A stretch of DNA of 35,672 bases from Kiritimatiellota bacterium (lineage in GTDB: Bacteria; Verrucomicrobiota; Lentisphaeria; Oligosphaerales; JAADHN01): contig JAADHN010000048.1 of assembly GCA_013151865.1 (NCBI GenBank), positions 1 to 35,672 of the forward strand, given 5' to 3'. Positions 12,733 to 30,549 of this stretch are shown in pieces. The position numbers and the translations under genes are program-made. Position 1 is the first letter of the stretch, and every line of letters begins with the position of its first letter. The notes beneath the pieces were generated by a model. It was not told the DNA's origin. It saw only the letters and a program-made list of their open reading frames with translations, and searched no databases.

Positions 12733-13065
12733 TCAGTCGTTCCCGGTGAGAAGCAGGTACCGTCCACAATTGGGACAGACACAAGGAATTGCGTTACGCC
12801 GCATGCGGTTCAGATCTCCGACGGGCACATTCAAGCGGCAGGCGGTGCATACGCCATCCACTTCGGTGGCCACGGCCGGACCGGTCCGCAAGAGGGCGTC
12901 GAAGCGGCGCAGGACCTCTTCCGGCAGCTTCGCACGCAGTTTTTCGACGCGTTGGCACGTCTCCGCCGCTGCCGCCGGGGGCGTGCTGCGGTGGACGATG
13001 CGCGTTTCCTGCAGGACGAGTTCCAGTTCCTGCAGTTCGTAGAGTTGTTGGACGAGTCGGCGCAT
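12733..13065 (-). CDS. Small C4-type zinc-ribbon protein with helical N-terminus
   Basis: The product is 110 residues. The ATG at 13065 follows GGGAG by 7 nt and begins the heptad-like helix MRRLVQQLYELQELELVLQE; the in-frame extension upstream does not look coding. Residues 1-60 are helical and likely coiled coil. A C4 zinc ribbon follows with C73xxC76 and C97xxC100, plus an extra C95 (VDGVCTACRLNVPVG, then PCVCPNCGRYL). This is the layout of the DUF164/zf-RING_7 type C4 zinc-ribbon proteins, which are usually about 240 residues, so this one has a shortened coiled coil. It is 16 nt upstream of the EIIA gene and surely co-transcribed with it. The family's biochemical role is poorly known; nucleic-acid or protein binding is possible. 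Confidence 0.85.
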   Translation of the reverse strand: MRRLVQQLYELQELELVLQETRIVHRSTPPAAAAETCQRVEKLRAKLPEEVLRRFDALLRTGPAVATEVDGVCTACRLNVPVGDLNRMRRNAIPCVCPNCGRYLLLTGND

Positions 13066-13358
13066 CGTCAGACTCCCGTTTTTCAGTGGATAGGGCGCCC
13101 GGAGTTGGCGGTACTCAGGCACGCCTCGCGGAACAAAGGACCGCACGTGCGCCTTCGGGGGCGCCGAGTGCGTGATTGCACTTCTGTCACAGTGCGCCTC
13201 AGCATGACCTGTACGGTTTTGCAGAGGTTGAGAGTTCGCCCGCGCTCCCGATTGTGTCGAGACGATCAGAAGATCCGAAAGCCCGCTGTAATCCTCCCGG
13301 TAACGGGAAGATAAAAGCTCGACAATCCAAATACAAGTACCTGGTTCGGATTCCTGTG
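13066..13358. other. 293-bp gap with two hairpins inside the long minus-strand series
   Basis: No gene is supported. One hairpin at 13293-13310 pairs CCTCCCG with CGGGAAG around GTAA (seven pairs including one wobble). A second at 13149-13164 pairs GCGCC with GGCGC around six bases. Neither has a T-run. They lie after the GT-C-like gene and before the zinc-ribbon gene, so this gap may mark a partial stop or a processing site that separates the pilus/polysaccharide genes from the zinc-ribbon/EIIA pair. Confidence 0.4.
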
Positions 13359-14939
13359 TCACGGGTTGCGCGGCCCATTCCCCGGCGCGGTTTCACGGCC
13401 GAGGAAGCGTAACCTGGATTCGTGTGCCGGCGGCACGACGCACCGCCAGAGCTGCCATCCGGGCGGCCAGGTCCGCTCGAGCAACAGCCAGGGCCGGCCG
13501 TTCCGGTGCAGGTCTGCGACCCCGCCGGTCCCCAGCGGGTAGAAGATGCCGTCGGCCGGCGGAACGAGCAGGTAAAGCTGCTCCTGCCGGGCCTGTTCGA
13601 GTACGACGCCTTCCCGGAAATCGAGCCGGTGCAGAAAACGTCTTTCGCGGATGTCGGGGTAACAGGTCGGTGCACGGACACCATAGACGAGGACCCTCGA
13701 ATTCTGCCAGTATCGGTCGATGAAAAATGTCAGGAGCTGTGCGTACGGCGCTGTCCGACGAAAATCCGCCGCGGCCTGGAGGCGTGGTGGTCGTCCGAGC
13801 CCGGCGAGGAGTGCGAGTGCGGGCAGGGCCCACGGAGCGAGTCTGGGCAGCAGGCCGGTTCGGTCCCGGGTCTGCGGCACGAGCCGAAGAGCGAGGGACA
13901 TGGCGGTGATCGTGAAAAACAGTCCTTCGACACCGGGCGCCAGAAACCGGATCGGTTCGAGTCCGGCTCGACACCAGGCCAAGACGACCAGCATACCCAG
14001 CAAGGCGAGTTCGGGGCGCAGGCGCCGGGGGCGTCCGGCGATCCCGAGGGCAAGAGCGTTGCCGAGGACGGCGACCGCTGCCGGCAAGGGGATGTTTTGG
14101 AGGAGGGTCGCGGAGGCGGTCGCCCCAGGAGGAGGGGCGGCGGCGAGGGTAGCGGCGAGACGGCGGAGAAAGAATATCGGGTCGTCCAGAATCAGCCAGT
14201 TTCCGACAAAGAGCAGGGCTACGGCGTAGGCAAAGGGGGCCCAGAGCAGCAGTGCGGCGCCCTTGCGGTCGCGACGGGGGACTTGCAGTGCGACATCGAG
14301 GGAAAGACGCAAAGCGATCAAGAGAGCAAGCCCGGCGGCGACGCCGGCGGGACCGCCGAAAGCCAGTACCCCGGAACACACCGCGGCCAGCAGTGCGTCG
14401 CGCAGCTCGCGTGCCCGGGACCAGCGGACCACGTGGAAGAGTGCTGCCGTTGCAGGCACCGTTGTGATCCAATTCGGGTCGAGGGCGAGAACGGTTGCAC
14501 GAAAGGTCGGCAACGCTGCCAGGGTCGCTGTACAGACACCGACCCAAAGGCGGTCGCGTTTGCGCGTTGCCAGTCGAAGGATATATGAGAAGCTCCATGC
14601 CTGGGCGAAGGCCACCAGAAAAAACGGCGCCAGCTTTTCCGGCACAAGCGGGACGTGCCGGACCAGCAACAGTGCGAGCGTGGGCAGAGGGGGGAAATCG
14701 AGGGCGCCCATCAGGGCCTGCCGCCCCCAGTTTTGTCCGGCGCTGAGGGAGTCCGCGATGGCGCCGTGTGCGGCCATCAGGTCGGAGTCATGGAACGGTA
14801 GGTTCATCCGCACCGCCATGAGTGAGACGAAGAAGAGTCCCCATAAAAGGCGTCCCGAGACGGGTGGCATGATGCCGAAACGTTGCTGGAGAGCGGCAGT
14901 GACGCGCCGGAGCGATTTGGATGACGTGATTGGCGTCAT
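13359..14939 (-). CDS. GT-C-like multi-pass membrane protein (putative lipid-sugar-dependent glycosyltransferase)
   Basis: The product is 526 residues. The ATG at 14939 overlaps the stop of the preceding glycosyltransferase as ATGA, so translation is coupled; the longer in-frame extension overlaps that gene and is rejected. There are roughly ten to twelve hydrophobic segments. An acidic motif, HDSDLMAAHG with D51 and D53, directly follows the first span. Its position is that of the catalytic Asp in the first outside loop of GT-C glycosyltransferases such as the PMT/ArnT/RgtA-D families. A soluble C-terminal tail of about 120 residues (from RTAPYAQLL onward) should lie outside the membrane. 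Family members move sugars from polyprenyl-phosphate carriers onto polymers, lipids or proteins. The fold assignment comes from topology and this motif only. A polymer-export or modifying membrane protein is the alternative. Confidence 0.72.
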   Translation of the reverse strand: MTPITSSKSLRRVTAALQQRFGIMPPVSGRLLWGLFFVSLMAVRMNLPFHDSDLMAAHGAIADSLSAGQNWGRQALMGALDFPPLPTLALLLVRHVPLVPEKLAPFFLVAFAQAWSFSYILRLATRKRDRLWVGVCTATLAALPTFRATVLALDPNWITTVPATAALFHVVRWSRARELRDALLAAVCSGVLAFGGPAGVAAGLALLIALRLSLDVALQVPRRDRKGAALLLWAPFAYAVALLFVGNWLILDDPIFFLRRLAATLAAAPPPGATASATLLQNIPLPAAVAVLGNALALGIAGRPRRLRPELALLGMLVVLAWCRAGLEPIRFLAPGVEGLFFTITAMSLALRLVPQTRDRTGLLPRLAPWALPALALLAGLGRPPRLQAAADFRRTAPYAQLLTFFIDRYWQNSRVLVYGVRAPTCYPDIRERRFLHRLDFREGVVLEQARQEQLYLLVPPADGIFYPLGTGGVADLHRNGRPWLLLERTWPPGWQLWRCVVPPAHESRLRFLGRETAPGNGPRNP

Positions 14940-16363
14940 AGGGTCTCCCCGGTCGGCTGTGTTTCTTGAGCGGGTTCCGCGAAATGCCGGGTTTTCTCCC
15001 AATGGTGGGGCCGGCGCAGCAGCTGGAGCGCCCCTTTCCAGGCGCCGATGCTCATCAGGGCCCAATACAACGGCATGGCCAGTGCATATTTGGTCAGGTG
15101 TCCGAAGCCGCGTCGAACACAGGCAATGCCACTGGTATAGGCAAAGACGAAATTCCCGAAGAACAGACAGACCGCCCCCATGGCGAACACGGGGCCGGGG
15201 AAATAGGCGTCCAGGCCCGAAGGCCGGAAGACCAGCCAGAGCAGGGCGAGAAACCAGTAGAGGGGGTTGATCAGTTGACAGAGAGGTGTTCCACCGATCA
15301 ACAGGTGAAAATGCAGACTGTTGCGCAATCCGAGACAGCGGCTCATTTTCAGCGGACTTCGCATGTGAACAAGGTAGGTTTGGATATATCCCTTGACCCA
15401 TCTCGAGCGCTGACGGATCCAATAGGGCAGGCTCGGGCAGGCCTGTTCCCAAGTGGTACTGTCCAACATGCGTGTGCGCCGGCCCTGAGCGAACAGGCGC
15501 AGACCCAGGTCACAATCTTCGGTGACGTTGTACTCGTCCCAGCCTCGCAGTTCACGGAGTGCGTCGAGTCGGAAATGGTTCGAGGTCCCACCGAGCGGGA
15601 TCGGTGCGTCCAGGTAATCCAACCCGGGGAGGCAGAGATCGAACCACATGGCGTACTCGGCGGTAAAACAGCGGGTGAGAAAATTGCGGTCTGGATTGTA
15701 GAAATTGAGCTTTGCCTGGATGCAGGCGACGCGGACCGGCATTCGCGAGAAGGCCACGGCCGCCTTCTTGAGCTGGTCCGGGTCGGGTCGGTCTTCCGCG
15801 TCATAGATTACCAGGAAGTCGGCGTCGGCGTCCGCCATGCCGACGTTGCAGGCCTTGGGTTTGGTTCGCGGTTGGGAGACGGGTACGGGAAAGACGACAA
15901 ACGGGGCCGGGGGCTTCAGGCGTTGCGCGGCCTGCAGGGTTTCTTCATCGTCTTCTTCGATGAGCAGCCGGATTTCGAGTCGGTCGGGGGGGTAGTCCAA
16001 TCGGCTGAGGGCCTGGACGAGGTCCGGCAGGATTTCGCCTTCACGGTAAATGGGTACGAGCACGAGATACCGGGGCCACTCGCCGTTGGGAGGCAACAGC
16101 TGGTGGGGACCGACGCGGATTTCTCGAGTCCGGCGCAGGGAGACGTCGATCAAAAGGATTCGATACGCCGTAGTCGCCAGATAGAAGAGCGTCATCACGA
16201 CATTCAGGGCGAGCAATTCCATTCGGGGGGCGACGATCAGGCCGGCGGCCAATACGCCGCCGACGACGATGAGCGCCTTTTTCTGCCACGGCACGAGTGT
16301 GCGAGAGGCTTGTTCGAAGCCCCGGGGCGCGGTCGGACTCGGCATGGCAGTGGAAGTGCCCAT
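14936..16363 (-). CDS. Membrane-bound processive-type family-2 glycosyltransferase
   Basis: The product is 475 residues. The ATG at 16363 is chosen because it lies 17 nt after the upstream stop; the frame is open further upstream only as an overlap. Two spans at about 28-45 and 48-70 precede a GT-A domain with LVPIYREGEIL (about 102-112), DAED at 188-191 (metal-binding DxD-like), TED at 281-283 (catalytic base) and QRSRW at 318-322 (the QxxRW motif). Three or four spans follow between 350 and 445. This is the build of processive polysaccharide synthases and XagB/BcsA-like enzymes, which polymerise NDP-sugars and pass the chain through the membrane. No PilZ domain is present, so c-di-GMP control is not seen in this chain. 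Product sugar is unknown. Its stop is translationally coupled to the GT-C-like gene. Confidence 0.9.
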   Translation of the reverse strand: MGTSTAMPSPTAPRGFEQASRTLVPWQKKALIVVGGVLAAGLIVAPRMELLALNVVMTLFYLATTAYRILLIDVSLRRTREIRVGPHQLLPPNGEWPRYLVLVPIYREGEILPDLVQALSRLDYPPDRLEIRLLIEEDDEETLQAAQRLKPPAPFVVFPVPVSQPRTKPKACNVGMADADADFLVIYDAEDRPDPDQLKKAAVAFSRMPVRVACIQAKLNFYNPDRNFLTRCFTAEYAMWFDLCLPGLDYLDAPIPLGGTSNHFRLDALRELRGWDEYNVTEDCDLGLRLFAQGRRTRMLDSTTWEQACPSLPYWIRQRSRWVKGYIQTYLVHMRSPLKMSRCLGLRNSLHFHLLIGGTPLCQLINPLYWFLALLWLVFRPSGLDAYFPGPVFAMGAVCLFFGNFVFAYTSGIACVRRGFGHLTKYALAMPLYWALMSIGAWKGALQLLRRPHHWEKTRHFAEPAQETQPTGETL

Positions 16364-16380: not shown

Positions 16381-18672
16381 TCAACGCTTGAGTGATTCGT
16401 TCGTATCGGAGGCGGTTGCGAAGACTGATTTCAGAGTGTCTGCCGTCACGCGCGTCAGCCAGATTCGGGTACGGTCGTTCGGCGTACGCAGCCCGATTCG
16501 GCCGTCGAACGTGCGGAATGTGCTGCTGAAATTCCGGGTCGATCCGGGGTAGTCCAGTAGTGCTTTCGAGTAGAAGTCGACTACCGGAACACGGAGTTTG
16601 AAGGCCAGTTCCTTGATGAGCAGCGCCGCCTCGCGAATCGTCGCGGGCTCGACCCCCGGAATCGGGGGCAGGGTGCACAGGACGGGGGTGCAGCCCGCGG
16701 CTTGAACAGCTTCGGCGAGGAAGAGCAGGTCGAGGCACAATTCCACGGGTCGGCGGCCGGCTTTCAGGTCTGCGGCGCCCACCGCCCAGAGTACTGCGCT
16801 CCCCTGCTTGGCCGTGGCCGGCGCCAGCAGGGCGAATTTTCGCAGGCGCCGTACCGACCCGACAAGATCGGGCGAGTCCACGCCGTAATAGTCGACAGGG
16901 ACGCCCAACAGTTCGGTAAGTCCGGTCTCGGGTCGGACCAAGGCGTCGGGCGCCGAGGCCACCGCCCAGAAATCGTCGACCACCGCGAGTCGTGTCGACC
17001 TCGAAGGGCTGTGCACGCCGCGAGGCTGTTCGCGGTTGGCGGGGTTCGCCAGGGGGCGCAGCACGGCCGGGACACCATCGGCAAAAAGGCGATTGCCCCG
17101 CAGGATCAATGGAGGGACGGGGCGGTCCGGACGAAGCAATTCAACGATGACCGGCCGTACTGCGGGAACGGCGCCACCGGCCTCGAGGTGCAAGACCAGG
17201 AGGCGGGCGCCACCCAGGGGGACGCGCAGGGACCGTATGCCGTGGTCCGGTGATTCAAGCGGGACCGTCCCGGAAGAGAGGGGCTGGTCACTGCTGTCGC
17301 GGGTTTCCCAGCGCACGGCGTCGCTTCGCGCGAACGCCGGAGCCAGGGGGGGCGGCACGTCCAAGACGGCGCATGAGGCGGTCAAAGGAGCGTCGGGCGG
17401 CAGCACAGCGGGCAAGTTCCGGAGTTCGAGCACGGGCGCCGCCAACCGGACCGGACCCCAAATGGTGTGCCCGGGCAGCGAGACTGTGGCTCGGGCGCCG
17501 GCCTCGTCCTGTGCGGTCAGTGTCAGGCTCGGCAGTTTGCAGCCAGGAAAGAGCATACAAGACACCGGAAGTCCAACGGCATTTCGTCCCCCGGCAGCAA
17601 GGGCTTGTGAACGGATGGCGCCCCTGCTGTAGGACCGACCGCGTCCCACCGCGTTGAGTGCCAGGGCGTTGGCGCCGGTCTGCGTGAAAACCCAGCGTTC
17701 GAGTTGCCGAATTTCGAGGCCCGGGTGCAGGGCCTTCTTTCGGCGTTCGATTCGCAGAGCGGGTGGGCGGCGGGTGGGGAAGAGGCGTTCGGACTGAAGG
17801 GCGGCGGGTGGGGTGTCTCCCTGTTGCCAGGAAAGGGCGGGGATGTTTTCGCCACTGCGCTGATACACGAAGAAATCGAGCCGGTGAAAGCCGGGCGCGA
17901 GGTCGAGCGGCCTGCTGAAGCGGGTCCCCTTATCGGGCGGCAGTCCTTCTTTCCAGCCCACGATGAAGGCGTCATCCACAAAGAGGAACCAGGCAGTGTT
18001 GAGGGCCCCGGCGCCGAAGCGTACGGCGGCCTTCTTTTCGAGCCGCAGTTCGGTTTCCCAGTGCAGGACGGCGGTATAGCGCTCGGGTGGCGAAGCCCAT
18101 TTGTCGTATGGAAGTTCAGGAGTGATTCCAGGCGTCCAGATGGTGTAGCGGAACCCGGTTTTGGCCACGGCTTCGAGTCGCAGCATTTCGCGTCCGAGGA
18201 AGGGACGGGTTCGGTATCGGGCCAGTCTGCGGGTGAGCGCCACGGGCGTCCGTCCGACGGGGGGGGGGAGCGTTGCCGCCGGAGTCGGCGGCTTCCCGGC
18301 CCGGGTCAGATAGAGTTCCACGCTGAGAGGCGGGCGCCGAGTGCTGCGGGCCTGTCGATAAGCTGCGCCTGCTGTGTGGCGGGAAATATGGAGTTCGACG
18401 CCGACCGTACGCCCCTGGAATTGGATTGGGCGTGCGGCGACGGGTTTCCCATCCGTGGTAAACGCCGCAACCGCCGCGTTGGTTGCGCTGAATTCTTCGG
18501 GTAGGTCGACTCGCAGGGTATGGGATTTGGGGGCGGCCGGCGCGACCAGAATACGAAAGTCGGCGTCGGGCACACGCCATGCCGAAGCCGACGTCGCGAC
18601 GGGCGGCGGCGCCCCCCGAATGGCGGCACTCACAGAAAGGACGGCGGCCAGGGCGAGGACGTCAGTTCTCAT
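16381..18672 (-). CDS. Secreted protein with PA14-like and degenerate SGNH-hydrolase-like domains
   Basis: The product is 763 residues. The ATG at 18672 overlaps the end of the ATPase gene by 11 nt, follows GAGG and starts a signal peptide (MRTDVLALAAVLSVSAAIRG). Residues about 170-290 have a PA14/GLEYA-like pattern (paired WETELRLEKKAAVRFG, FLFVDDAFIVGW, LAPGFHRLDFFVYQ). A beta-rich middle follows. Residues about 555-760 align in order with the SGNH/GDSL blocks, but the key residues are changed: block I reads VVDDF in place of GDS, block III reads VGAAD in place of GxND, and the DxxH block reads DGRIGL. If the alignment holds, the domain is not an active esterase and may bind glycan instead. 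It lies between the assembly ATPase and the glycosyltransferase, so a periplasmic role in polymer handling is inferred. Confidence 0.75.
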   Translation of the reverse strand: MRTDVLALAAVLSVSAAIRGAPPPVATSASAWRVPDADFRILVAPAAPKSHTLRVDLPEEFSATNAAVAAFTTDGKPVAARPIQFQGRTVGVELHISRHTAGAAYRQARSTRRPPLSVELYLTRAGKPPTPAATLPPPVGRTPVALTRRLARYRTRPFLGREMLRLEAVAKTGFRYTIWTPGITPELPYDKWASPPERYTAVLHWETELRLEKKAAVRFGAGALNTAWFLFVDDAFIVGWKEGLPPDKGTRFSRPLDLAPGFHRLDFFVYQRSGENIPALSWQQGDTPPAALQSERLFPTRRPPALRIERRKKALHPGLEIRQLERWVFTQTGANALALNAVGRGRSYSRGAIRSQALAAGGRNAVGLPVSCMLFPGCKLPSLTLTAQDEAGARATVSLPGHTIWGPVRLAAPVLELRNLPAVLPPDAPLTASCAVLDVPPPLAPAFARSDAVRWETRDSSDQPLSSGTVPLESPDHGIRSLRVPLGGARLLVLHLEAGGAVPAVRPVIVELLRPDRPVPPLILRGNRLFADGVPAVLRPLANPANREQPRGVHSPSRSTRLAVVDDFWAVASAPDALVRPETGLTELLGVPVDYYGVDSPDLVGSVRRLRKFALLAPATAKQGSAVLWAVGAADLKAGRRPVELCLDLLFLAEAVQAAGCTPVLCTLPPIPGVEPATIREAALLIKELAFKLRVPVVDFYSKALLDYPGSTRNFSSTFRTFDGRIGLRTPNDRTRIWLTRVTADTLKSVFATASDTNESLKR

Positions 18673-20470
18673 TGTCCTCGGGCACTTCATAGGTGAGGTC
18701 GAGGGTGCTGGTGATCCGGGTGACTTCCTCGATGGTGGTAAAGCCGGCCTGTACCTTGACCCAGCCGTCGTCGCGTAAAGTTCGCATACCGTGCTCCCGT
18801 GCCTCGTGGCGGAGTTGACTGGTGGAGGCGTGACGGCTGACCATATCCTGGATGTTCTCGTCCAGCAGGAAGATTTCGAAAACGGCCACGCGTCCCCGGT
18901 AGCCCGTATAGTTGCACTCGATACACCCCTTGCCCTTCCAGGCATGGACTTCTTCGGGTGCGATGCCGAGACTTCGGGCCATCTGCGCCCGGAGTCTCGG
19001 GTTGATCTCCGTTTGTTTTTCCTTGCAGTGCGGACAGATGCGACGGACGAGGCGCTGGGCCAGGGACGCCACCAGGGACGCGGCGACCAGGAAGGGCTCG
19101 ATCCCCATGTCGATCAGGCGATTTACCGCCCCGACCGAGTCATTGGTATGCAGCGTACTGAGAACCAAGTGTCCGGTCATGGCCGACCGAATGGCGATTT
19201 CGGCGGTTTCGGCATCCCGGATCTCGCCCACGAGGATGATGTCCGGGTCATGCCGGAGGATCGAACGCAGGCCGCGGGCGAACGTGAGTCCGATGTCCGC
19301 CCGGATTTGGATTTGCGATGTGCCTTCGAGTACGTACTCGACCGGATCTTCGACCGTGATGATCTTCCGTTCCGGGCTGTCGGCTTTCACTTTGGCCAGG
19401 GCGGCGTAGAGGGTGGTGGTTTTTCCGCTCCCGGTGGGGCCGGTTACCAAGATGATCCCGTGGGGCAGTTTGACGAGTTTTTCGAGGATGACCCGCTGTT
19501 GCCGGTCCAGACCGAGCTGCTCCATTTCGAGGAAAATTGAGGCACGGTTGAGGATCCGGAGACAGAGCGTTTCGCCGAAACGCGTGGGCAGGATGGAGAC
19601 ACGCAAGTCGAAGTCTTCCTCTCCCACGCGGACGCGGATACGGCCGTCGTGGGGAAGGCGATGCTCGGCGATGTTCAAGTCCGCCATGACTTTAAGCCGG
19701 GCGACAATGGCTTCATGGAGTTCGCGCAGGCCCGGTGGGGTGGGAATGTCGCGCAACATACCGTCGATGCGATATCGGAGTCGGACCGTATCCTCGAACG
19801 GCTCGATATGGATGTCGGTCGTGTCCATTTCGAGCGCCTCGACGAGCATCTGGTTCACCAGATGGGTGATCGATGCGTCGTCCTCGGTTTCCGTCGTGGT
19901 GAGATCCTGGCCGGCGGTGCTTTCGAACCGAACGGCATCTGCGGCGCGGCCCAATCCCCGATCCTGGCGTATTTGCAGTACGGTTTCCGCGCCCAGTCCG
20001 TAGATATTCTTGAGGGTGCGGGCGATGTCCTTGGGGCCCGCGATGCAGGGATCCAAGCGCAACCCAAGCAGGAGGCGCAAGTTCTGCCGGTCCCGTACCG
20101 ACGGAGGGGAGGAAAAGGCGGCGCGAAGTGTGCCGCGGGAGATGGAAATCGGCACGAATTTATAGTGGAGCGCGACTTTGGCCGGGACCTTCTTGGCCGC
20201 GTCTTCTCCGAGTTCGGTTTCGCTGAGTACCATGAACGGCAGCGCATTCGTCTCGGCCACGGCGCGGAAGACGTCCTCCTCCGAGGCGATGCCCAAATCC
20301 ATGACCGCCTGGTGGCTCGGAATGGCGGCGCGCCGCATCCGCCGCCGGGCGGTTTCAGCTTGTTCCGCGGTGATCACATCCTTGTCCACCAGCAGTGACA
20401 GGAGGTCGCCGCCGGAGGGCGAGACGAGCGTGCGTTCTTCGGATATTTCGTTGGGAGGTGGGGCGCTCAT
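18662..20470 (-). CDS. gspE: GspE/PilB-type secretion or pilus assembly ATPase
   Basis: The product is 602 residues, starting at the ATG at 20470; a TTG two codons upstream is the alternative. Residues about 20-165 form the MshEN-type N-terminal domain (LLSLLVDKDVITAEQAE), a fold that in some relatives binds c-di-GMP. The motor domain carries Walker A GPTGSGKTTT (344-353), an Asp box at EDPVEYVLEG (375-384), Walker B ILVGEIRDAETAE (412-424), a His box (STLHTND), and the zinc-binding pairs CPHC (479-482) and CIEC (516-519) typical of GspE and PilB. It powers polymerisation of pilins or pseudopilins at the inner membrane. It starts 15 nt after the PilP/GspC-like gene and overlaps the next gene. 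All catalytic motifs are intact. I cannot decide between T2SS and T4P assignment from this protein alone. Confidence 0.96.
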   Translation of the reverse strand: MSAPPPNEISEERTLVSPSGGDLLSLLVDKDVITAEQAETARRRMRRAAIPSHQAVMDLGIASEEDVFRAVAETNALPFMVLSETELGEDAAKKVPAKVALHYKFVPISISRGTLRAAFSSPPSVRDRQNLRLLLGLRLDPCIAGPKDIARTLKNIYGLGAETVLQIRQDRGLGRAADAVRFESTAGQDLTTTETEDDASITHLVNQMLVEALEMDTTDIHIEPFEDTVRLRYRIDGMLRDIPTPPGLRELHEAIVARLKVMADLNIAEHRLPHDGRIRVRVGEEDFDLRVSILPTRFGETLCLRILNRASIFLEMEQLGLDRQQRVILEKLVKLPHGIILVTGPTGSGKTTTLYAALAKVKADSPERKIITVEDPVEYVLEGTSQIQIRADIGLTFARGLRSILRHDPDIILVGEIRDAETAEIAIRSAMTGHLVLSTLHTNDSVGAVNRLIDMGIEPFLVAASLVASLAQRLVRRICPHCKEKQTEINPRLRAQMARSLGIAPEEVHAWKGKGCIECNYTGYRGRVAVFEIFLLDENIQDMVSRHASTSQLRHEAREHGMRTLRDDGWVKVQAGFTTIEEVTRITSTLDLTYEVPEDNEN

Positions 20471-20485
20471 GGGCAAATTCGAAAT

Positions 20486-21166
20486 TCAGGGAAGCAGGAT
20501 TTTCTTCTGTTGGCTGAAGGCGATTCTGAAGACCCGGCCCTGTGGGTCGGTCACGACGAGTGTCTTGCTGTCAAAGTCTTTCACGGAGAACTCACCCAGC
20601 TTGTCACCGGGCAACAGGTACTGCAGTTTGTTGGTTTTGAGTTCACGCACGAGGGCCAAGCGCTTGCCCGAGCCGGTGGTGATGCAGCCTTGATACTGAA
20701 CGATGCGGACGACTTTCGGTTTCGGTTTGGGCTTCGGCTTTGGAGCGACGGCTTTGGCCGTCTTGGCTGCGGGTTTCTTGGCTGCGGGTCGGGGTTTCTT
20801 GCCGGTGCCCGGCTTTTTGGCAAACGGATTGGGGATGCCTCCTCGCTTGCCGGTTTTGGTCGTCTTGAGCCTGGGTCTCTTTTTCCATGGTTTGGTCGGT
20901 TTTCTGGCCTCCGGGACTTTCAGCACGAAAAAGAAGGGATGCTGGTTCATGTGCGGCGGGGGCAATTCCTGTTTGAAGGCAAAGGCAGTTTCCATGTTGA
21001 TGAGAGAGGTGACCCGGTCGCGATGCTTGGTGGCCTGCACGCTCCCCTCGCCGCCGCCGAAGAGGCCGAGCAGCCAATTCACGCCGAGGCCCAGCAGAAT
21101 AAGGACCATGGCCCAAAAGAAGGTCTTTTCCCAATTGGTACAGGCCCGTTGGAGGAGTTTTTTCAT
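20486..21166 (-). CDS. PilP/GspC-like inner-membrane protein with Lys/Pro-rich linker
   Basis: The product is 226 residues; MKKLLQRACTNWEKTFF at the ATG at 21166 gives a normal membrane-anchor start, whereas 20 further in-frame codons upstream look non-coding. One span lies at about 18-37. A long basic linker (about 85-155) is built of Lys, Pro and Ala and includes KPKPKPKPK, recalling the rigid periplasm-spanning arm of TonB. The C-terminal 70 residues (VRIVQYQGCITTGSGKRLALVREL, then YLLPGDKLGEF, then VTDPQGRVFRIAF) match the beta fold of PilP and the GspC HR domain, which contacts the N0 domain of the secretin. It lies 15 nt before the ATPase gene. Assignment rests on position and fold pattern, as sequence in this family is weakly conserved. 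Confidence 0.75.
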   Translation of the reverse strand: MKKLLQRACTNWEKTFFWAMVLILLGLGVNWLLGLFGGGEGSVQATKHRDRVTSLINMETAFAFKQELPPPHMNQHPFFFVLKVPEARKPTKPWKKRPRLKTTKTGKRGGIPNPFAKKPGTGKKPRPAAKKPAAKTAKAVAPKPKPKPKPKVVRIVQYQGCITTGSGKRLALVRELKTNKLQYLLPGDKLGEFSVKDFDSKTLVVTDPQGRVFRIAFSQQKKILLP

Positions 21167-21340: not shown

Positions 21341-22246
21341 TCAAGCGCCGGGCGGAACGTTCACTTTTTCCGCGGCGGGCCCGGAGATTTTCTGGCCGAT
21401 GCGGAAAAACGCACTACACTCCACCGTGACCTCGATTCGGTCCAACTGCCGTACGGCGAGGGTGGGGACAACTTTCTTGATTTCCATTCGTGAGATAGGA
21501 TAGAAACGCGGTTTTTTTGTTTTTGGATCTTGGCCGTGAAGCGCCCGGAGGAACTCGCAGAAGTCCTCGACTTTGCCGACCAGAGTCATCCGCACCGGGA
21601 TTTCGAGGAGATAGGGTTCTTTGTCTTTTGTATTTAGGAAATACCCGCGGACCGGCAACACGGTCAGCTTGGAGGCCAGCAGGTATTTTCGTCCTTCCGT
21701 GGCGACGCGAACCTTGGGGTCGCGACTGGGCATCAGCCGTCGATCGAGGGCCAGATCCATCAGGTCTTCGAGCGTCCAAAGCTGAAGCATCAATTGGTAG
21801 GTGTATGGGGAATCGGTATTCTCCCCAAGACCCAATTCTTGCTCGGCCAGGATGACGCCGCGACTGCGCATTCTCCGGTCGAAATCGTCGTACTCGCTCT
21901 GGAAGTCAAGACGACTCACTGCATTGCGAAAGTCCTCGGTCAAATCGTAGAAGGCGCCGATTCGTCGCGTAAACATGGCCGTGCACTGCGCGAGCGTTTC
22001 CTCGGAGAGCTGCTTGATTCGCTTGAGTTCCCGGTCTTTTTCTTCGCGCAACGAGCCCAAGCGCTCTGGGTCGATCGTCCATCCGGTCTTCTTGAGTTTG
22101 GTTTCGTTATCGGCGACGTCCTGGCGGGCGATGCCGACGTCTTCGAGCAAAGGTCGGATGAGAAAGATGAACACCACCACCGCTCCGAGCACGGCGAGGG
22201 CGAACAGCTTAGCCATGGTCTTGTGTTGTTCGGGCCAGGGCCTCAC
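21341..22246 (-). CDS. pilO: PilO/GspM-like alignment protein
   Basis: I favour the GTG at 22246 (301 residues). It overlaps the preceding stop as GTGA and has AAGGA six nt upstream; the ATG at 22216 (291 residues) has no ribosome-binding site but is the alternative. The order is a short cytoplasmic tail, one membrane span (LFALAVLGAVVVFIFLIRPLL, about 14-34), a coiled coil (about 40-95, many Glu/Lys/Arg heptads), then a periplasmic alpha/beta domain ending in RIEVTVECSAFFR. This is the layout of PilO, which pairs with PilN to align PilM with the PilP-secretin part of the machine. The GKVEDFCEFLRAL stretch fits the ferredoxin-like PilO core. The function is assigned by topology and by its place right after PilM-PilN. 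Confidence 0.82.
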   Translation of the reverse strand: MRPWPEQHKTMAKLFALAVLGAVVVFIFLIRPLLEDVGIARQDVADNETKLKKTGWTIDPERLGSLREEKDRELKRIKQLSEETLAQCTAMFTRRIGAFYDLTEDFRNAVSRLDFQSEYDDFDRRMRSRGVILAEQELGLGENTDSPYTYQLMLQLWTLEDLMDLALDRRLMPSRDPKVRVATEGRKYLLASKLTVLPVRGYFLNTKDKEPYLLEIPVRMTLVGKVEDFCEFLRALHGQDPKTKKPRFYPISRMEIKKVVPTLAVRQLDRIEVTVECSAFFRIGQKISGPAAEKVNVPPGA

Positions 22247-24108
22247 TCGGCATCCTTTCCTTTTTCCGGCTTGGGCGGGTGGACATCCAGCTCGGCAAAC
22301 GGCATGCGCAAAACAAAGGCCTTGTACCGTTCGCCGCCAGCCCGGCGGGTGGTGTACAGGAGTTTTTCCCACGGGAGAAAAATGTCTTCGCGCGCGGCAC
22401 GTTCGCTGTCCGGGAAGAGGTCCACGTTCCGGAAGAGCGGGCGTTTATCCTTCGAGGTGTTGAGCTTTTCGATGATTTTCTTGACGCCCCGGTAGGGGTC
22501 GACAGGCTGGATGCGCGTGTAGACTGCGGCGATCATAGTCGTAACGGGCCTGATATAGGGGAGTTTGATCCGTACGGGGTAGGGGTCGGGCAGACCGGTA
22601 TCGTCGGCCGCAGAAGTTCCGGCGGATGCAGCTCCGAATCCCATCCCCATCAGAGGGGAGCCCGCCCCGGGTTTGGGGGCGGTGGGTTTCTTGGGTTTTT
22701 CTTCTTTCTGCTTGCCGGCTTCGTAAGAGTCACGGTCCGCCAGATAAACAAACCAGTCGTCCGGCCCCCGGGCCTCGGCCAGCTTTTCGATGGCGGCAAG
22801 GAACCGTCGGGCCCGGTTGCCTTTTTCCACGAACGGCAACAGGAGTTTCTCCCGGTGTTCGATGTCATTGTTCAGGCTGTCGATCTGCTTGATGAGCTGA
22901 GCGCACTGGTCCAATTCCAGCATTCTTGCCTGGAGTCGTTCCTTTTCCACGGTCAGGGCCTGATAGGAATAGAACAACCCCCCCGCCATGAGGAGAATGG
23001 CGAGTGCGGTGGCGGTGTAGAGATAGCCGACCGAATGCCTGCGGAGGTTCATCCAACGCACGCTGTCCGGCGCAAGGGAGATTCGGGCGTGTGCCGCCCC
23101 CATTCCCTGAAGGGCCAAGCCGAACGCGACCATAAAAACGGGATCGCGTCGGCCTTCGCCGGGGGCCTCGACGGGCACGCCGACGACCTTGGATTCGCAA
23201 CCGAATGTCCGGCCCAAGAAATCGGCCAGACCCGTGAGTTTGGCGCCGCCTCCGGCAAGCCCGATGCGTTCGAACATTTTCCGGGCGATCTCGGGGGAAG
23301 CCTGGGATCGCCAGTGCTCGACGGCGGTGCGGAGTTCTTTTTCGAGAAGCTTGGCGGCCTGAAAGAGCGGAGAGGCCGGGTCGGCCGGGTTGAGGCGTGC
23401 GTTCCGCTTGGCCTGTTCCACGATTTCTTCGCCGCCCTTAAGATGCTGGGCCAAGGCTTGGTTGAATTTCTCGCTGCCGAAAAGGAGACTGGTGACGAAG
23501 ATGGGGTGCCCGCCGTTGAGGACCACCATCGTGGTGTTCTCGATCCCAATGTCCAGCAAGAGTTGCGGTCCACTCGATTTCGATTCTTCTGGGTAGAGGT
23601 GACAGTATGCGTTGGCGAGAGCCAGTCCGTTCATGGCGAAATCGCGCACCCAAATGCCGATGTCGCGGAATTGTCGGGCCTGCTCATCGACCACGGATTG
23701 GCGGCAGATGCCGATGAGGACCGGGTTCTTGTGGTTCTTGGTCGCCGGCAGGCGGTGATAGCCGAAAAGGAACGGTTCGTCGGACAGGCCGGCCAGTTGC
23801 TGGGTTTCGAATGCGACCATCTCGTCCAGGGCCTCGCCCGAGCCCTCGGGAAAATCCGAGATTTGCGTGGTGGCGAGATACTGGGGAACGCCGACCGTAT
23901 ACTCCCCCCCGACCAGTCCGACCTGCTCAAGCCACGGCTTCAGTTGAGCCAAGATCTCGTCCGGGCTCAGAAGTCCCTCTTCCTGGCAATCGAGGAGATG
24001 GCATTCGACCGTTTCGGGCGTGTCCGAACTGCCGGAAAGGGCCACGACTTTGACCGTGCCCTGGCCGATGTCGAGTCCGATCGTGGGTTTTGTCTTGATG
24101 AAGCCCAT
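22243..24108 (-). CDS. pilM: PilM-PilN fusion: actin-like ATPase joined to a membrane alignment protein
   Basis: The product is 621 residues from the ATG at 24108; the open 20 codons upstream look non-coding. Residues 1-345 are a PilM/FtsA-type actin fold with phosphate-1 GLDIGQGTVK (11-20), phosphate-2 LLDIGIENT (184-192) and the adenosine motif GLAGGGAKLTGL (283-294). A PilN-like part follows: a short cytoplasmic tail with RWMNLRRHS, one span at about 361-382, a coiled coil to about 450, and a periplasmic domain interrupted by a Lys/Pro then Gly/Met/Ala-rich linker. In most bacteria PilM and PilN are separate, and PilM grips the PilN tail, so the fusion fixes that contact. Unlike a plain PilM (about 350 residues), there is no stop or start near the junction. 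It is coupled to the PilO-like gene by a 4-nt overlap. Confidence 0.9.
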   Translation of the reverse strand: MGFIKTKPTIGLDIGQGTVKVVALSGSSDTPETVECHLLDCQEEGLLSPDEILAQLKPWLEQVGLVGGEYTVGVPQYLATTQISDFPEGSGEALDEMVAFETQQLAGLSDEPFLFGYHRLPATKNHKNPVLIGICRQSVVDEQARQFRDIGIWVRDFAMNGLALANAYCHLYPEESKSSGPQLLLDIGIENTTMVVLNGGHPIFVTSLLFGSEKFNQALAQHLKGGEEIVEQAKRNARLNPADPASPLFQAAKLLEKELRTAVEHWRSQASPEIARKMFERIGLAGGGAKLTGLADFLGRTFGCESKVVGVPVEAPGEGRRDPVFMVAFGLALQGMGAAHARISLAPDSVRWMNLRRHSVGYLYTATALAILLMAGGLFYSYQALTVEKERLQARMLELDQCAQLIKQIDSLNNDIEHREKLLLPFVEKGNRARRFLAAIEKLAEARGPDDWFVYLADRDSYEAGKQKEEKPKKPTAPKPGAGSPLMGMGFGAASAGTSAADDTGLPDPYPVRIKLPYIRPVTTMIAAVYTRIQPVDPYRGVKKIIEKLNTSKDKRPLFRNVDLFPDSERAAREDIFLPWEKLLYTTRRAGGERYKAFVLRMPFAELDVHPPKPEKGKDAE

Positions 24109-24190: not shown

Positions 24191-26305
24191 TCATTTGCCG
24201 GTCGCGGGCGTACGGTAGTCCATGAGGTCGCCGGAGGTTCCGATCACCGTAGCGGTCACGAAAATCAGTAAATGCTGTGGTTCGGTTTGCTCTTCTGTGT
24301 GGCGGAACAGGACGCCGAGGTACGGGATATCGCCCAGGATCGGCACCTTCCGCACCGTCTTCGAATGTTTGGACTCGAGCGTCCCACCGAGGACCACCGT
24401 ATCGCCGCTGTTCACCACCACCGTGGTTTGCAGTTTGCTCTCATTGATCTTAGGCAGGCTGACCAGACCGCCCGGCTGTTCCGTGGTGTTGTTCGAATTG
24501 GCGGTGTTGGTATTCGTGTTATTTGTGCCCCCGCTGTCGCCCGAGGTTTGAAAATTGAGCCATTCGATGAATTGGGTGATATCCGGTTCAAGCGCGAGCT
24601 GAATGGTTTTTCCGTCGTTGCCGATGCTGGGTTTGACCGTGAAGGTGATCCCCAACTCCAGTTCCGTTGGGCTGCCCGACGGCACCAGTTGGGTCACCGT
24701 CCCGGCCGTGCCGTTTTGGACGGTGGTCTGAATCGATTGGAGGTCGTATTCTTCGAAATAATACATGGTATCGCCTTTGCGAATCCGTGCCGTATGGTTG
24801 TTCACGACCGTGATTCGTGGGGCACTAAGGGTGCGGGTCGAGCTTTTCTCATTCAAGGCGTGCAACACGGCCCGATAGGTGTGGTTGCCCAAGATGCCGG
24901 AAAGGGTGATGTTCGCACCGTTAGTGGCGTTCTTGAAGTCTTTGAATTTGGTGACGCCGTCCATGGTCATGATCATGGCCTTGTCGCCCAAATCTCGGCC
25001 ATCGAGGCTGAATTCAGGGATGTCGAGGCCGATTTCGGCGAGATCGCCTTCGCCGATGGTCAAGAATCGGGCTTCGATGAGGACTTGGAGCGGCGGTTGG
25101 TCGAACGCTCGCAGCAACTCCTCGAGGGTCCGGAGGCTCTCCCGGGTGTTCCGCACGAGGAGGAGATTGCGGCTTTTGAAGATTTGGTACATCGCGCCAT
25201 CGGGTGGGTTGGCGTTCAACAGACCTTCGATGGCATCCTCGAGTTCGGTGTCTTCCGGATTGCTCGGACCTTTGTCGCCGCCTCCCCCACCGCCGCTGCG
25301 GCCCCCGCCCTTGCTTTTCGACAAGGCCGGAATGAACCCGGAACGGATCTGATAGATGCGGGTTTCGAGCTTTGGACCGCCGCCGGCGTCGTCGCTCTTC
25401 GTAACCCAGATCGTGTTCTCGCCCACATAGAAGGCTATTCCCATGTTGCGGGCGATGTAACTGAGCAATTCCTTCAGGGGGACATCCTTGACGCTGATGT
25501 TCAGTTTCTTGTCCTCCTCGAGTGCCTCGTCGGCGATGATGTTAAGGCCCTCGACTTTGCTCAATGCCATGACCATGTCTTTCACACCGGCATTGGTCAG
25601 AGTCATGGAGACTTTTCGGTTGACCAAGTCCTCCATCGGCCCCTGAGGCATCTCGACGGGGCCGAGGTCTCGGGAGATGGTCACGGTCCGGCCATAATTG
25701 TCTGGAAGGATCAACCGTTGGCGCACTTCGTTCAGAGCGCGTGCATGGGAGCGTTCCGCGGCCCGCGCGAAATTTTCTTGCAGGGCCCTCTGTTCAATCT
25801 GCCGGCGGAGCTTCTCCACGCGGTCGGTCAGGATCCCTTTACCCAGGAGAGGGGCCAACATTTCTTCGGCTTTTGCAAGTTCCCCGCGTCCGGCCAGGGT
25901 CTCGGCTTTGGCAAGGCGTCTCGCCGCCTCGTCGAGGGCTTTTTCGGCTGCCTTGGGAGGCTGTGCCCCGGCGTCGATATTCGCGGTCGGTTGTTCGGGG
26001 GCGGGCGGGATGGACTTTGCGACCGGGGCGGCGGTTTCACGGAGCTTGCTGATTTGCAGTAAGAGCGGTGTGAGTTCTTTCTGGTAACGCAAGTCGCCCA
26101 GAAGAGGTCCCAGGGCTTCTTGGGCCGCATCGGCCTTTTTTTCGCGAACCAGGCGACGGGCCCGGTTCAAGGCCTGTTGCGCCGTCGCGTCGGCAAGCGG
26201 CGCGGCATCGGAGACGGCGGCACGCCGCGACGCCAGTGCATCCAGGGTGCGGCACGAGCTGCACGCGAGCACAACGGAAAGCAGCAAAAATGCTTGTCGT
26301 TTCAT
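24191..26305 (-). CDS. Outer-membrane secretin of the PilQ/GspD family
   Basis: The product is 704 residues. AAGGAG lies six nt before the ATG at 26305. The N-terminus (MKRQAFLLLSVVLAC) is a lipoprotein-type signal with C15 as the probable lipidated residue. Residues 40-210 are helical and TPR-like, an addition before the usual N domains. An STN/N1-like domain is at about 223-309 (VKDMVMALSKVEGLNIIADE, KDVPLKELLSYIA). A Gly-rich loop lies near 330-347. The secretin core, about 450-686, shows RTLSAPRITVVNN, an Asn/Thr-rich loop, and the signature VPILGDIPYLGVLFR. Such proteins form the ring channel through which a pilus or folded protein passes. No separate pilotin gene is visible. The gene stands 143 bp after the pseudopilin gene and 82 bp before PilM-PilN. 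Confidence 0.95.
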   Translation of the reverse strand: MKRQAFLLLSVVLACSSCRTLDALASRRAAVSDAAPLADATAQQALNRARRLVREKKADAAQEALGPLLGDLRYQKELTPLLLQISKLRETAAPVAKSIPPAPEQPTANIDAGAQPPKAAEKALDEAARRLAKAETLAGRGELAKAEEMLAPLLGKGILTDRVEKLRRQIEQRALQENFARAAERSHARALNEVRQRLILPDNYGRTVTISRDLGPVEMPQGPMEDLVNRKVSMTLTNAGVKDMVMALSKVEGLNIIADEALEEDKKLNISVKDVPLKELLSYIARNMGIAFYVGENTIWVTKSDDAGGGPKLETRIYQIRSGFIPALSKSKGGGRSGGGGGGDKGPSNPEDTELEDAIEGLLNANPPDGAMYQIFKSRNLLLVRNTRESLRTLEELLRAFDQPPLQVLIEARFLTIGEGDLAEIGLDIPEFSLDGRDLGDKAMIMTMDGVTKFKDFKNATNGANITLSGILGNHTYRAVLHALNEKSSTRTLSAPRITVVNNHTARIRKGDTMYYFEEYDLQSIQTTVQNGTAGTVTQLVPSGSPTELELGITFTVKPSIGNDGKTIQLALEPDITQFIEWLNFQTSGDSGGTNNTNTNTANSNNTTEQPGGLVSLPKINESKLQTTVVVNSGDTVVLGGTLESKHSKTVRKVPILGDIPYLGVLFRHTEEQTEPQHLLIFVTATVIGTSGDLMDYRTPATGK

Positions 26306-26448: not shown

Positions 26449-27204
26449 TCAGGGCGTCCAGACCCCTTGTTCCCACTCGGCTTTGCTCAGAAAAAAGTTC
26501 CCGGCATACGAGACGTTGAGTACGGGGAGGTCGTTAATACCGATGGTCGTGATCTTCTGAAGACGATGAATATGCCAGAAGCAGCGGAGCACGGGGAAGA
26601 GCGTTTTGTCCCAGGGAATGGGGTTTTGTGCGGTCCACCCCGGGGGGTACGTTTCGGCTTGGCCTCGTATTTGTTTTTCCTTATATTCGGACCAACTGTT
26701 GTACGCAGGGGCAAACGAACACGGTGCGTGGGAGTATTCGTAGAAATAGCTGGATTTCTTGATATCGTTGTTTCGGGGCATCATGCCCGAGGCCGGGGTG
26801 CTGCCTGTGCGATCGTAGGCCTCGGAAAACTGGTTGTCTTTCCGGGCCTTCCACTCATTGTCCGCCGTTCCGGGGTCGTTTCCGTCCGATGGGCACAGAT
26901 AGATCTTGTCGCTGCTGATGTAATCCGGGTAAAGATTGGAAATCCAGGGAACCATCTTGTCATCGTTGTCGTCCCGGTACATGATAAGGGCTGTGCCGAA
27001 CTGCTTGAGATTGGCCGTACACGTGGCTTGGTGCGCCTTTTCCCGTGCTTTGCGGAGCACGGGTAGGAGCATTCCCGCCAAGATGGCGATAATGGCGATG
27101 ACCACGAGCAACTCGATGAGCGTGAACGCCCGTGCGGAACGGCCTTTGCCGGACCGCGGCGCGGAGATCGAACCGGAAACGTTCTGTCGCCAGTGTCTCT
27201 TCAT
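26449..27204 (-). CDS. Type IV pilin-like / pseudopilin protein (prepilin with N-methylation stem)
   Basis: The product is 251 residues from the ATG at 27204, which has AGGTGG seven nt upstream; the ATG two codons earlier (27210) is the alternative. A basic leader of about 26 residues ends in RSARA and is followed by [20 protein letters not shown], the class III prepilin stem with Glu at position 5. The residue before the cleavage site is Ala, not the usual Gly. The rest ([22 protein letters not shown], then MYRDDNDD) is typical of the large prepilin-type families of Lentisphaerae and Kiritimatiellae. The periplasmic domain has few Cys and no HxxxxxxxxxDG end motif that I can see. It is divergent from the GH5-like gene and is the first gene of the machine series. 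Whether it builds a pilus or a T2SS pseudopilus is open. Confidence 0.9.
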
Positions 27205-27646
27205 TTCCATTCCACCTCGTTTCTGCAAAATCGGTCCTCTGCGCGAGAGCATCCGTGCCTCGAGCGATCGATTGGAGCCGGTTTGCAGCGGCCGCGTCTC
27301 CGTGCGGAAAGCCGATTTCAGGGACGGCCGCGGCACCCGCCCGGCGCTTGATACCGTACAGCCCCGAGCGCCGCGGCTCAACCTGAGGGACACACAAGGA
27401 CCGCGCACCTTGCCCCGCGTCTTCTACACTGTCCAAACGTTTTCGAGTCACGGTTTATTGACATGCACCCAACATTCAGGCAGGTCCACTCGTTTTCTTG
27501 ATCTGAATACGACCGCGGCACAAACGGGGAGAGTTTCAGCCCCGCAAATCGGGAGTCGCGGGACCGGATAGCCGGGCAAGCTGTCGCGCTCAGGGCGGGT
27601 GACAGCGCGTTTCGGTACGGGCCAGACGGATTGGACGACAGCGCGG
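27205..27646. other. 442-bp divergent intergenic region
   Basis: This lies between the divergent pseudopilin and GH5-like genes and must hold promoters for both directions. I found TTGACA at 27458-27463 on the plus strand, but the hexamer 17 nt downstream (CAGGTC) is not a good -10, so no promoter is called. GAGGTGG next to the pseudopilin start (27212-27218) is its ribosome-binding site. I see no gene or clear operator. The part from 27599 to 27646 could instead be coding if the GH5-like gene starts at the GTG at 27599. Confidence 0.55.
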
Positions 27647-30104: not shown

Positions 30105-30549
30105 TCAACGCGCCCCGAATATCCAGTAGCTGCGCAGAATGAAGAGGGCCGGGGCATCCGTGTCGCGTACGGGCAGGTAGCGGCGCCCGTCCCAATCGAA
30201 AACAGCCCCGACTCCGGCGACCCCTTCGGGCATGGGGCCGGTGGTGTCCGGGGTGTACAGATTCCAGCCGGGCAGCGTGGCGGGAGGGCTCCCCGCGGTC
30301 GTCCGCGGCGAGGGCCGGGACAACCCCCCGGTGGGCGAATACACCCACAGCCCGACTCTTGCCGGCGGCGAAACGTCCGGGGCGAGCGCCGCGTAGCTCT
30401 GTGTGGCAGCGTCCCAGGCCCAGACCGGTCCGAGCGCAAGCGTTCCCCGGCCTGTCGTCCCCGCGAGCAACTGCGCCAGGGACAGTTCCCCATTGGCCGG
30501 AAACCCCACCAGATTCCAGCCGGGCTGCAGTTCGAGGACCATGTCCGAT
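30105..30549 (-). repeat. Tandem C-terminal GWNL-type domains in the right-hand giant
   Basis: Two similar units end the protein. The first has LQPGWNLVGFP, then GPVWAWDAATQSYAAL, then VGLWVYSP; the second has LPGWNLYTP, then GAVFDWDGRRYLPV, then SYWIFG. Both keep the order GWNL, aromatic-Trp-Asp, Tyr, and aromatic-rich end over about 65 residues. A C-terminal sorting or anchoring role is possible but unproven. Confidence 0.6.

Follow-up and report, generated by a model that had tools for sequence, protein, structure and literature searches.

Proteins with an SGNH-type fold, such as AlgX, AlgJ and WssI, are found in polysaccharide systems together with a synthase of glycosyltransferase family 2 (GT2). 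In AlgX and AlgJ a catalytic triad is present and the core is circularly permuted (PMC4148444; PMC9487903), and WssI has been named an O-acetyltransferase (PMC10302187). Active SGNH families are known in which individual block residues have been lost or changed (PMC9487903), and the word pseudoenzyme does not occur in the main text of that 2022 review of the superfamily. Outside bacteria, the OSK domain of Oskar has an SGNH-like fold and another role (PMC7250577). For cellulose, BcsB combines carbohydrate-binding and flavodoxin-like domains in repeats and is required for BcsA activity (PMC11379886), and in the cyanobacterial hormogonium polysaccharide (HPS) system polysaccharide production is tied to type IV pilus activity (PMC9239167). 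Here we describe a 763-residue protein with a C-terminal SGNH-like domain, hereafter the pseudo-SGNH protein, encoded on a 35,672-nucleotide stretch (the window; contig JAADHN010000048.1) of a Kiritimatiellota bacterium.

We regard this protein as a pseudoenzyme, an SGNH esterase fold that has been without its chemistry since long ago and has been kept for another job. Specifically, we are evenly balanced on whether it is a conserved accessory subunit of a synthase-dependent polysaccharide module that is coupled to a type IV pilus-like machine. What we computed comprises predicted folds, residue loss, the retention of a different set of residues, purifying selection, gene order and co-occurrence. 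In the literature searched, the coverage of which was partial, we found no family in which all SGNH catalytic residues are lost and which is linked with a GT2 and with pilus-type genes. A search of the protein's own genome gave one match to it at E ≤ 0.001. The gene and its parts are as follows:

16381..18672, minus strand: pseudo-SGNH gene, ATG at 18672 and stop at 16381, 763 amino acids, about five predicted domains
16408..17007, minus strand: SGNH-fold domain, residues 556–755, from structure comparison and a profile match to TesA
16477..16491, minus strand: block V equivalent, L728-R-T-P-N732, His lost and PN kept
16768..16782, minus strand: block III equivalent, V631-G-A-A-D635, Asn lost
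16969..16983, minus strand: block I equivalent, V564-V-D-D-F568, Ser lost, D566 in 59 of 62 homologues
17053..17760, minus strand: beta-rich region, residues 305–540, from the secondary structure of the model only
17761..18249, minus strand: PA14-fold domain, residues 142–304, from a separate model and structure comparison
18298..18576, minus strand: N-terminal beta domain, residues 33–125, from the model

The C-terminal domain is, by prediction, an SGNH three-layer fold. An AlphaFold2 model of the full protein, built from an alignment of 28 homologues (30 loci were fetched; L027 and L030 were excluded as short pieces), reached a mean predicted local distance difference test (pLDDT) score of 85.9 and a predicted template modelling score of 0.78. 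When residues 556–755 were compared with solved structures, they matched 4rsh (Z 18.1, 2.6 Å, 170 residues aligned), 1yzf (Z 18.1, 3.1 Å, 177 aligned) and E. coli TesA, or thioesterase I (1ivn; Z 15.6, 3.2 Å, 173 aligned), and a sequence profile from 28 C-terminal domains likewise retrieved TesA (4jgg, E 9.7e-6; 1jrl, E 2e-5). These fold scores and the profile match rule out a chance resemblance to SGNH proteins. Pfam Lipase_GDSL_2 scored the window protein alone at 19.5 bits, below its cut-off of 32.9, and matched 15 of the 28 homologues at E up to 0.1 (best 4.8e-6). The weak Pfam OSK matches in five of the 28, all below cut-off, we treated as fold resemblance, probably arising via the shared fold; Oskar differs in being an insect germ-plasm protein. 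The whole-protein Foldseek list was filled by multi-domain proteins with template modelling scores near 0.12 and was left unused, and the absence of AlgX, AlgJ and BcsB from the structure-match rows listed carries no weight.

The domain shares with TesA-like SGNH/GDSL hydrolases the predicted fold over 170–180 residues, a colinear block order with block I first, and the PN of block V. It differs from them in that Ser, Asn and Asp/His are replaced, in belonging to a multi-domain protein, and in retaining the family-specific D566 and R680. AlgX and AlgJ are a poor fit: their core is permuted, while the window domain is colinear with TesA. HMMER alignments to TesA place GDS (GDA in the row of a mutant) at DDF (residues 566–568), GGND at GAAD (632–635) and HPN at TPN (730–732), so that F568, A634 and T730 stand where Ser, Asn and His would be. 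For Ser the register could be off by one—the structure rows of E. coli TesA (n = 10), with register judged from alignment start points, give F568 in seven and D567 in three—and neither residue is Ser. The region of the block II Gly is too divergent for placement. A scan of the whole chain for G[DENQA]S, GxND and DxxH strings found none, and on this ground we rejected an active triad elsewhere in it; the last His, H554, lies ahead of the domain and is the only one beyond residue 550. An active SGNH esterase in an unusual register that sequence comparison missed could draw on the one-residue uncertainty in block I and on a DDS kept in three homologues; the chain has none of the catalytic strings, the window domain has no His at all, and the lack of any His after residue 554 speaks against a Ser–His mechanism, so that we find this scarcely credible.

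The preliminary description of this DNA had already proposed, for the same open reading frame (ORF), a C-terminal SGNH-like domain that had lost its catalytic residues. The fold comparisons and the TesA profile match bear out the domain, and the occupied positions and the empty whole-chain scan bear out the loss. Its block strings VVDDF (564–568) and VGAAD (631–635) stand as placed; DGRIGL (723–728), given there as the DxxH block, precedes the true block V equivalent by a few residues, and that block too is without His. Of the two outcomes that it named as refuting, a predicted structure other than an SGNH fold and a triad elsewhere in the chain, neither turned up. It had named AlgX/AlgJ and GDSL esterases together as comparisons, and the second, in its TesA-like form, is the one that fits. 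The PA14-like domain that it mentioned is upheld by fold (5a3l, Z 14.6) and not by Pfam score, and its suggestion that the substitutions be compared in orthologues led to the same answer, in that the losses are kept across 62 homologues.

Those homologues come from searches of 47 genomes of the window's order, 35 of which carry the pseudo-SGNH gene, and of 387 genomes of the phylum, where the gene was found outside the window's order in G373, G160 and G227. With the profile widened by these out-of-order homologues, the class of G160 (hereafter the second class) gave hits at E ≤ 1e-8 in 46 of 288 genomes; 27 had long matches, and the remaining 19, with short matches to the PA14 or SGNH region, were excluded from the counts. 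The same widened profile hit 42 of 196 genomes in the window's class, eight of them outside the order and two of those long (G373, G569). These large searches scored two to five candidates per genome, so absences are soft. For the residue counts, L027 (an N-terminal piece) and L130–L132 (PA14 match only) were dropped, leaving 62 C-termini for comparison, several of them partial: 33 from the window's order, two more from the same class and 27 from the second class.

Among these 62 homologues, 54 keep none of the three catalytic residues, eight keep one and none keeps two. Ser occupies the block I position in three (L105, L108, L112), Asn the block III position in three (L010, L077, L103) and His the block V position in two (L017, L111); DxxH strings occur within the last 90 residues of four and, by inspection, fall outside the aligned block V. 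For seven close pairs, the ratio of nonsynonymous to synonymous substitution rates (dN/dS) was 0.157–0.352 over the whole protein and 0.128–0.269 over the last 225 residues, the latter being lower in six of the seven. The equal losses across the homologues, together with these ratios, thus indicate that SGNH chemistry is absent from nearly the whole family, that the loss is old and that purifying selection acts on the gene. Decay confined to a single genome is ruled out by the shared losses and by dN/dS of at most 0.352 in all seven pairs.

A few members depart from the common pattern. L105, L108 and L112 keep DDS in block I with the Asn and His positions changed, and are possible intermediates of the loss. 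L017 (genome G009, as HPN) and L111 (G200) have His at block V with no Ser or Asn, perhaps as remnants of an active ancestor. In many members of family f43 and of f44 a Cys-containing insert lies inside the SGNH domain (loci L119–L128).

Other positions are conserved instead: D566 in 59 of 62, P669 in 61, R680 in 60, A683 in 61 and D699 in 61. D566, R680 and D699 are thus kept far above any catalytic SGNH residue here, and might together make up an active site of a new kind, with a different chemistry. We hold such a re-tooled enzyme to be very improbable, as no constant Ser or His partner accompanies the three residues, and as an Asp like D699 is present in ordinary SGNH proteins too and so may be structural.

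Towards the N-terminus, residues 30–315 were modelled separately (22 rows, pLDDT 90.1; model residue plus 29 gives the protein residue). Residues 142–304 match the PA14 beta-sandwich of Cea1A (5a3l; Z 14.6, 3.3 Å, 166 aligned), a bacterial PA14 domain (6xa5; Z 13.3, 3.1 Å, 147 aligned) and Flo5 (2xjp; Z 12.9, 2.6 Å, 149 aligned). Pfam PA14 gave no match to the window protein up to E 1 and matched one of the 28 homologues, at E 0.021. A PA14 fold is by itself no proof of sugar binding. The model suggests that residues 305–540 are perhaps two Ig-like domains, and residues 1–20, judged by eye, are a possible export signal; a simple hydropathy scan of the window protein found no segment above threshold, the N-terminus included.

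PA14 folds occur in adhesins, and residues 30–315 are conserved at a mean column identity of 42% (22 rows) against 39% (28 rows) for the C-terminal domain, the row sets being different. Both points could be turned towards a secreted structural or adhesive protein in which the SGNH part is a mere spacer. We consider this quite improbable: the C-terminal dN/dS is below that of the whole protein in six of seven pairs, each of five SGNH-domain positions is retained in 59–61 of 62 homologues, and gene order ties the protein to a GT2.

As a separate observation, L184–L186 (genomes G476, G395 and G416) are proteins of roughly 700–800 amino acids whose significant match to the family is restricted to the PA14 region; the second class has a broader set of PA14 proteins.

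The gene-order evidence concerns two genes that follow the pseudo-SGNH gene:

14936..16363, minus strand: BcsA-like GT2, 475 amino acids, with a QRSRW motif (Pfam Glyco_trans_2_3, 1e-27)
13359..14939, minus strand: polytopic membrane protein, 526 amino acids, with a soluble C-terminus; overlaps the GT2 stop by four bases

The GT2, which begins 18 bases past the pseudo-SGNH stop, agrees with the preliminary description's placing of a polysaccharide synthase next door. Its profile matches BcsA (7lby) at E 9.8e-22 over positions 59–402 of 481, and D136, D186/E188/D189, E280/D281 and Q316/R319/W320 (the D, DAED, TED-type and QxxRW motifs) are invariant in 12 of 12 rows. The third protein is more elusive. 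PMT_2 was found in two of its 15 members (best 2.8e-4) and not in the window member, a comparison with the PDB gave no match up to E 5, and GT-C-like is at best a label of convenience for it. A Pfam scan of 14 neighbouring genes in the window showed no acyl-transfer partner of the MBOAT type (other loci were not scanned for MBOAT).

Within the window's order, 29 of 35 carriers have the pseudo-SGNH gene directly upstream of the GT2, on the same strand and 25–340 bases away. The exceptions are G018, where a GT2 begins after the gene and is cut off by the contig end (as seen in L031); G004, G033, G043 and G046, where gene and GT2 are on separate contigs; and G015, which has no GT2 match at E ≤ 1e-60. 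The GT2 and the third gene adjoin in 31 genomes of the order. Across its 47 genomes, 34 have both pseudo-SGNH gene and GT2, one the gene only, one the GT2 only and 11 neither, with a G010 match (48% identity) set aside as a paralogue, giving 35 GT2 genomes; in a further count a 42-residue match in G002 was left out, leaving 34. In the second class the gene directly precedes the GT2 in 18 of 27 genomes, and across all 288 genomes 26 have both, one the gene only and 10 the GT2 only. Two other candidates were set aside. A solute-binding-like protein (judged by eye, with no family search; cluster F3) lies upstream in 10 of 22 neighbourhoods; we took it for a separate gene, because it is encoded on the opposite strand and did not turn up in the other neighbourhoods. 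A defence protein found no support, there being no PADLOC match up to E 0.01.

If the pseudo-SGNH protein is an accessory subunit, it would be exported to the periplasm or surface and there bind the sugar chain that the adjacent GT2 would make and push across the inner membrane. The membrane protein of the third gene may belong to the same complex, with the GT2 as a further member. The chain would then be held and steered by the inactive SGNH cleft together with the PA14 domain, much as the carbohydrate-binding and flavodoxin-like domains of BcsB may do with cellulose. The likeness to BcsB lies in a gene beside a BcsA-like GT2 and in the union of an alpha/beta domain with beta domains of a carbohydrate-binding type; the difference is that the model contains one alpha/beta domain, C-terminal, in place of two repeats of carbohydrate-binding and flavodoxin-like domains, and has PA14 and SGNH folds instead. 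By this analogy the protein may work like BcsB without being a member of BcsB. The glycan-binding or scaffold role put forward in the preliminary description is one that we infer.

On its other side the gene adjoins a pilus-type locus:

18662..20476, minus strand: PilB/GspE-type ATPase (T2SSE, 1.6e-130), its end overlapping the pseudo-SGNH start by 11 bases
20486..21166, minus strand: PilP-like protein, named from position only, no family above cut-off
21341..22216, minus strand: PilO-like protein, named from position only, no family above cut-off; the G003 homologue is 44% identical
22243..24108, minus strand: PilM-like protein with an extra C-terminal part (PilM_2, 1.1e-16; Amuc_1101 family, 85.3 bits, cut-off 650)
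24191..26305, minus strand: secretin (Secretin, 5.1e-34; Amuc_1098 family, 167.8 bits, cut-off 750)
26449..27210, minus strand: prepilin-like protein with an N-methylation motif (PF07963, 1.6e-7)

The secretin and the PilM-like protein score to the NCBIfam models of the Akkermansia Amuc_1098–1101 locus, while lying far below the cut-offs, so that they are homologous without being members. To our knowledge the Akkermansia locus is without a pseudo-SGNH gene or GT2 module. T2SSF genes were present in six of six genomes tested, and a platform protein is thus available elsewhere in the genome. PilB adjoins the gene in two of 20 neighbourhoods (L041–L060), namely in G003, with the wider locus, and in G005; the pilus-type locus is also adjacent in G373, of the window's class, and, divergently, in G160. 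Of 25 further loci from the second class, 14 have a secretin adjoining the gene in divergent orientation, in conserved order. These are 14 of the 16 loci with at least 2 kilobases of upstream DNA, the exceptions being L180 and L182 from one genus; the nine loci with less, none of which shows a secretin and which are too short to tell, were left out of that fraction.

This gene order suggests that the synthase module could cooperate with the adjacent machine of prepilin, secretin, PilM-like protein and PilB. The HPS system is a precedent in function, homology aside, with the difference that the coupling in the window is read from gene order only. A more specific proposal, which we advance tentatively and with some doubt, is an unnamed export system in which the BcsA-like synthase, the polytopic protein and the pseudo-SGNH/PA14 handler feed a polymer to or through the secretin/PilB-driven machine, as one envelope-spanning device in at least two bacterial classes.

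The same neighbourhood lends itself to the main rival, namely that the module decorates the pilus: pilin would receive a sugar made or attached by the GT2 and the membrane protein, and its glycosylated form would be presented or recognised by the pseudo-SGNH protein. The divergent secretin of the second-class loci would suit this, as would f43, where the gene can stay beside the secretin with the GT2 on another contig (L175 in G507, L179 in G151), and a third protein that is distantly GT-C-like at best. On the contrary, the QxxRW motif and the match to BcsA over 59–402 of 481 positions sit better with a polymerase than with a lipid-sugar synthase, and in the alignment of the third protein (A6) the acidic residues expected in the loops of GT-C enzymes are not constant. 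We judge pilin decoration unlikely.

Several points weigh against an accessory subunit of a pilus-coupled polysaccharide module. Ten GT2 carriers of the second class are without a long match to the pseudo-SGNH gene, and in f43 the GT2 is unlinked and elsewhere in the genome (present in eight of nine f43 genomes searched; 10 of 11 handles). The co-occurrence tests, with Fisher values, ignore the relatedness of the genomes. No PilB lies beside the gene in 18 of the 20 neighbourhoods L041–L060, some of which have little upstream DNA. The N-terminus of the window protein is weakly hydrophobic, and the protein is without the C-terminal membrane anchor of BcsB and its repeats. Glycan binding, export, the complex and the nature of the polymer are all things we infer.

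A family that is without SGNH catalytic residues, is under purifying selection and mostly adjoins a synthase offers a case, open to test, in which a hydrolase fold would have become a part for handling polymer. It gives a testable role to two genes without a family above cut-off, the pseudo-SGNH gene and the third gene, and a partner to the GT2. Two things go beyond the preliminary description, the constancy of the three-gene module across many genomes and its link to a pilus-type locus, and the second of these suggests a route by which a largely uncultured group may export or use surface polysaccharide.

Elsewhere in the window, a small zinc-ribbon protein (12733–13098, minus strand; PF02591 at cut-off) is encoded downstream of the three genes of the module; G001 and G003 carry a homologue at the same site. 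Further off are a 638-amino-acid protein with an N-terminal GYF_2 domain and no family assigned to the rest (5688–7604, minus strand) and, beyond the pilus-type genes, a 1846-amino-acid ORF with a carboxypeptidase regulatory-like domain (30105–35645, minus strand), which may be a large surface protein.

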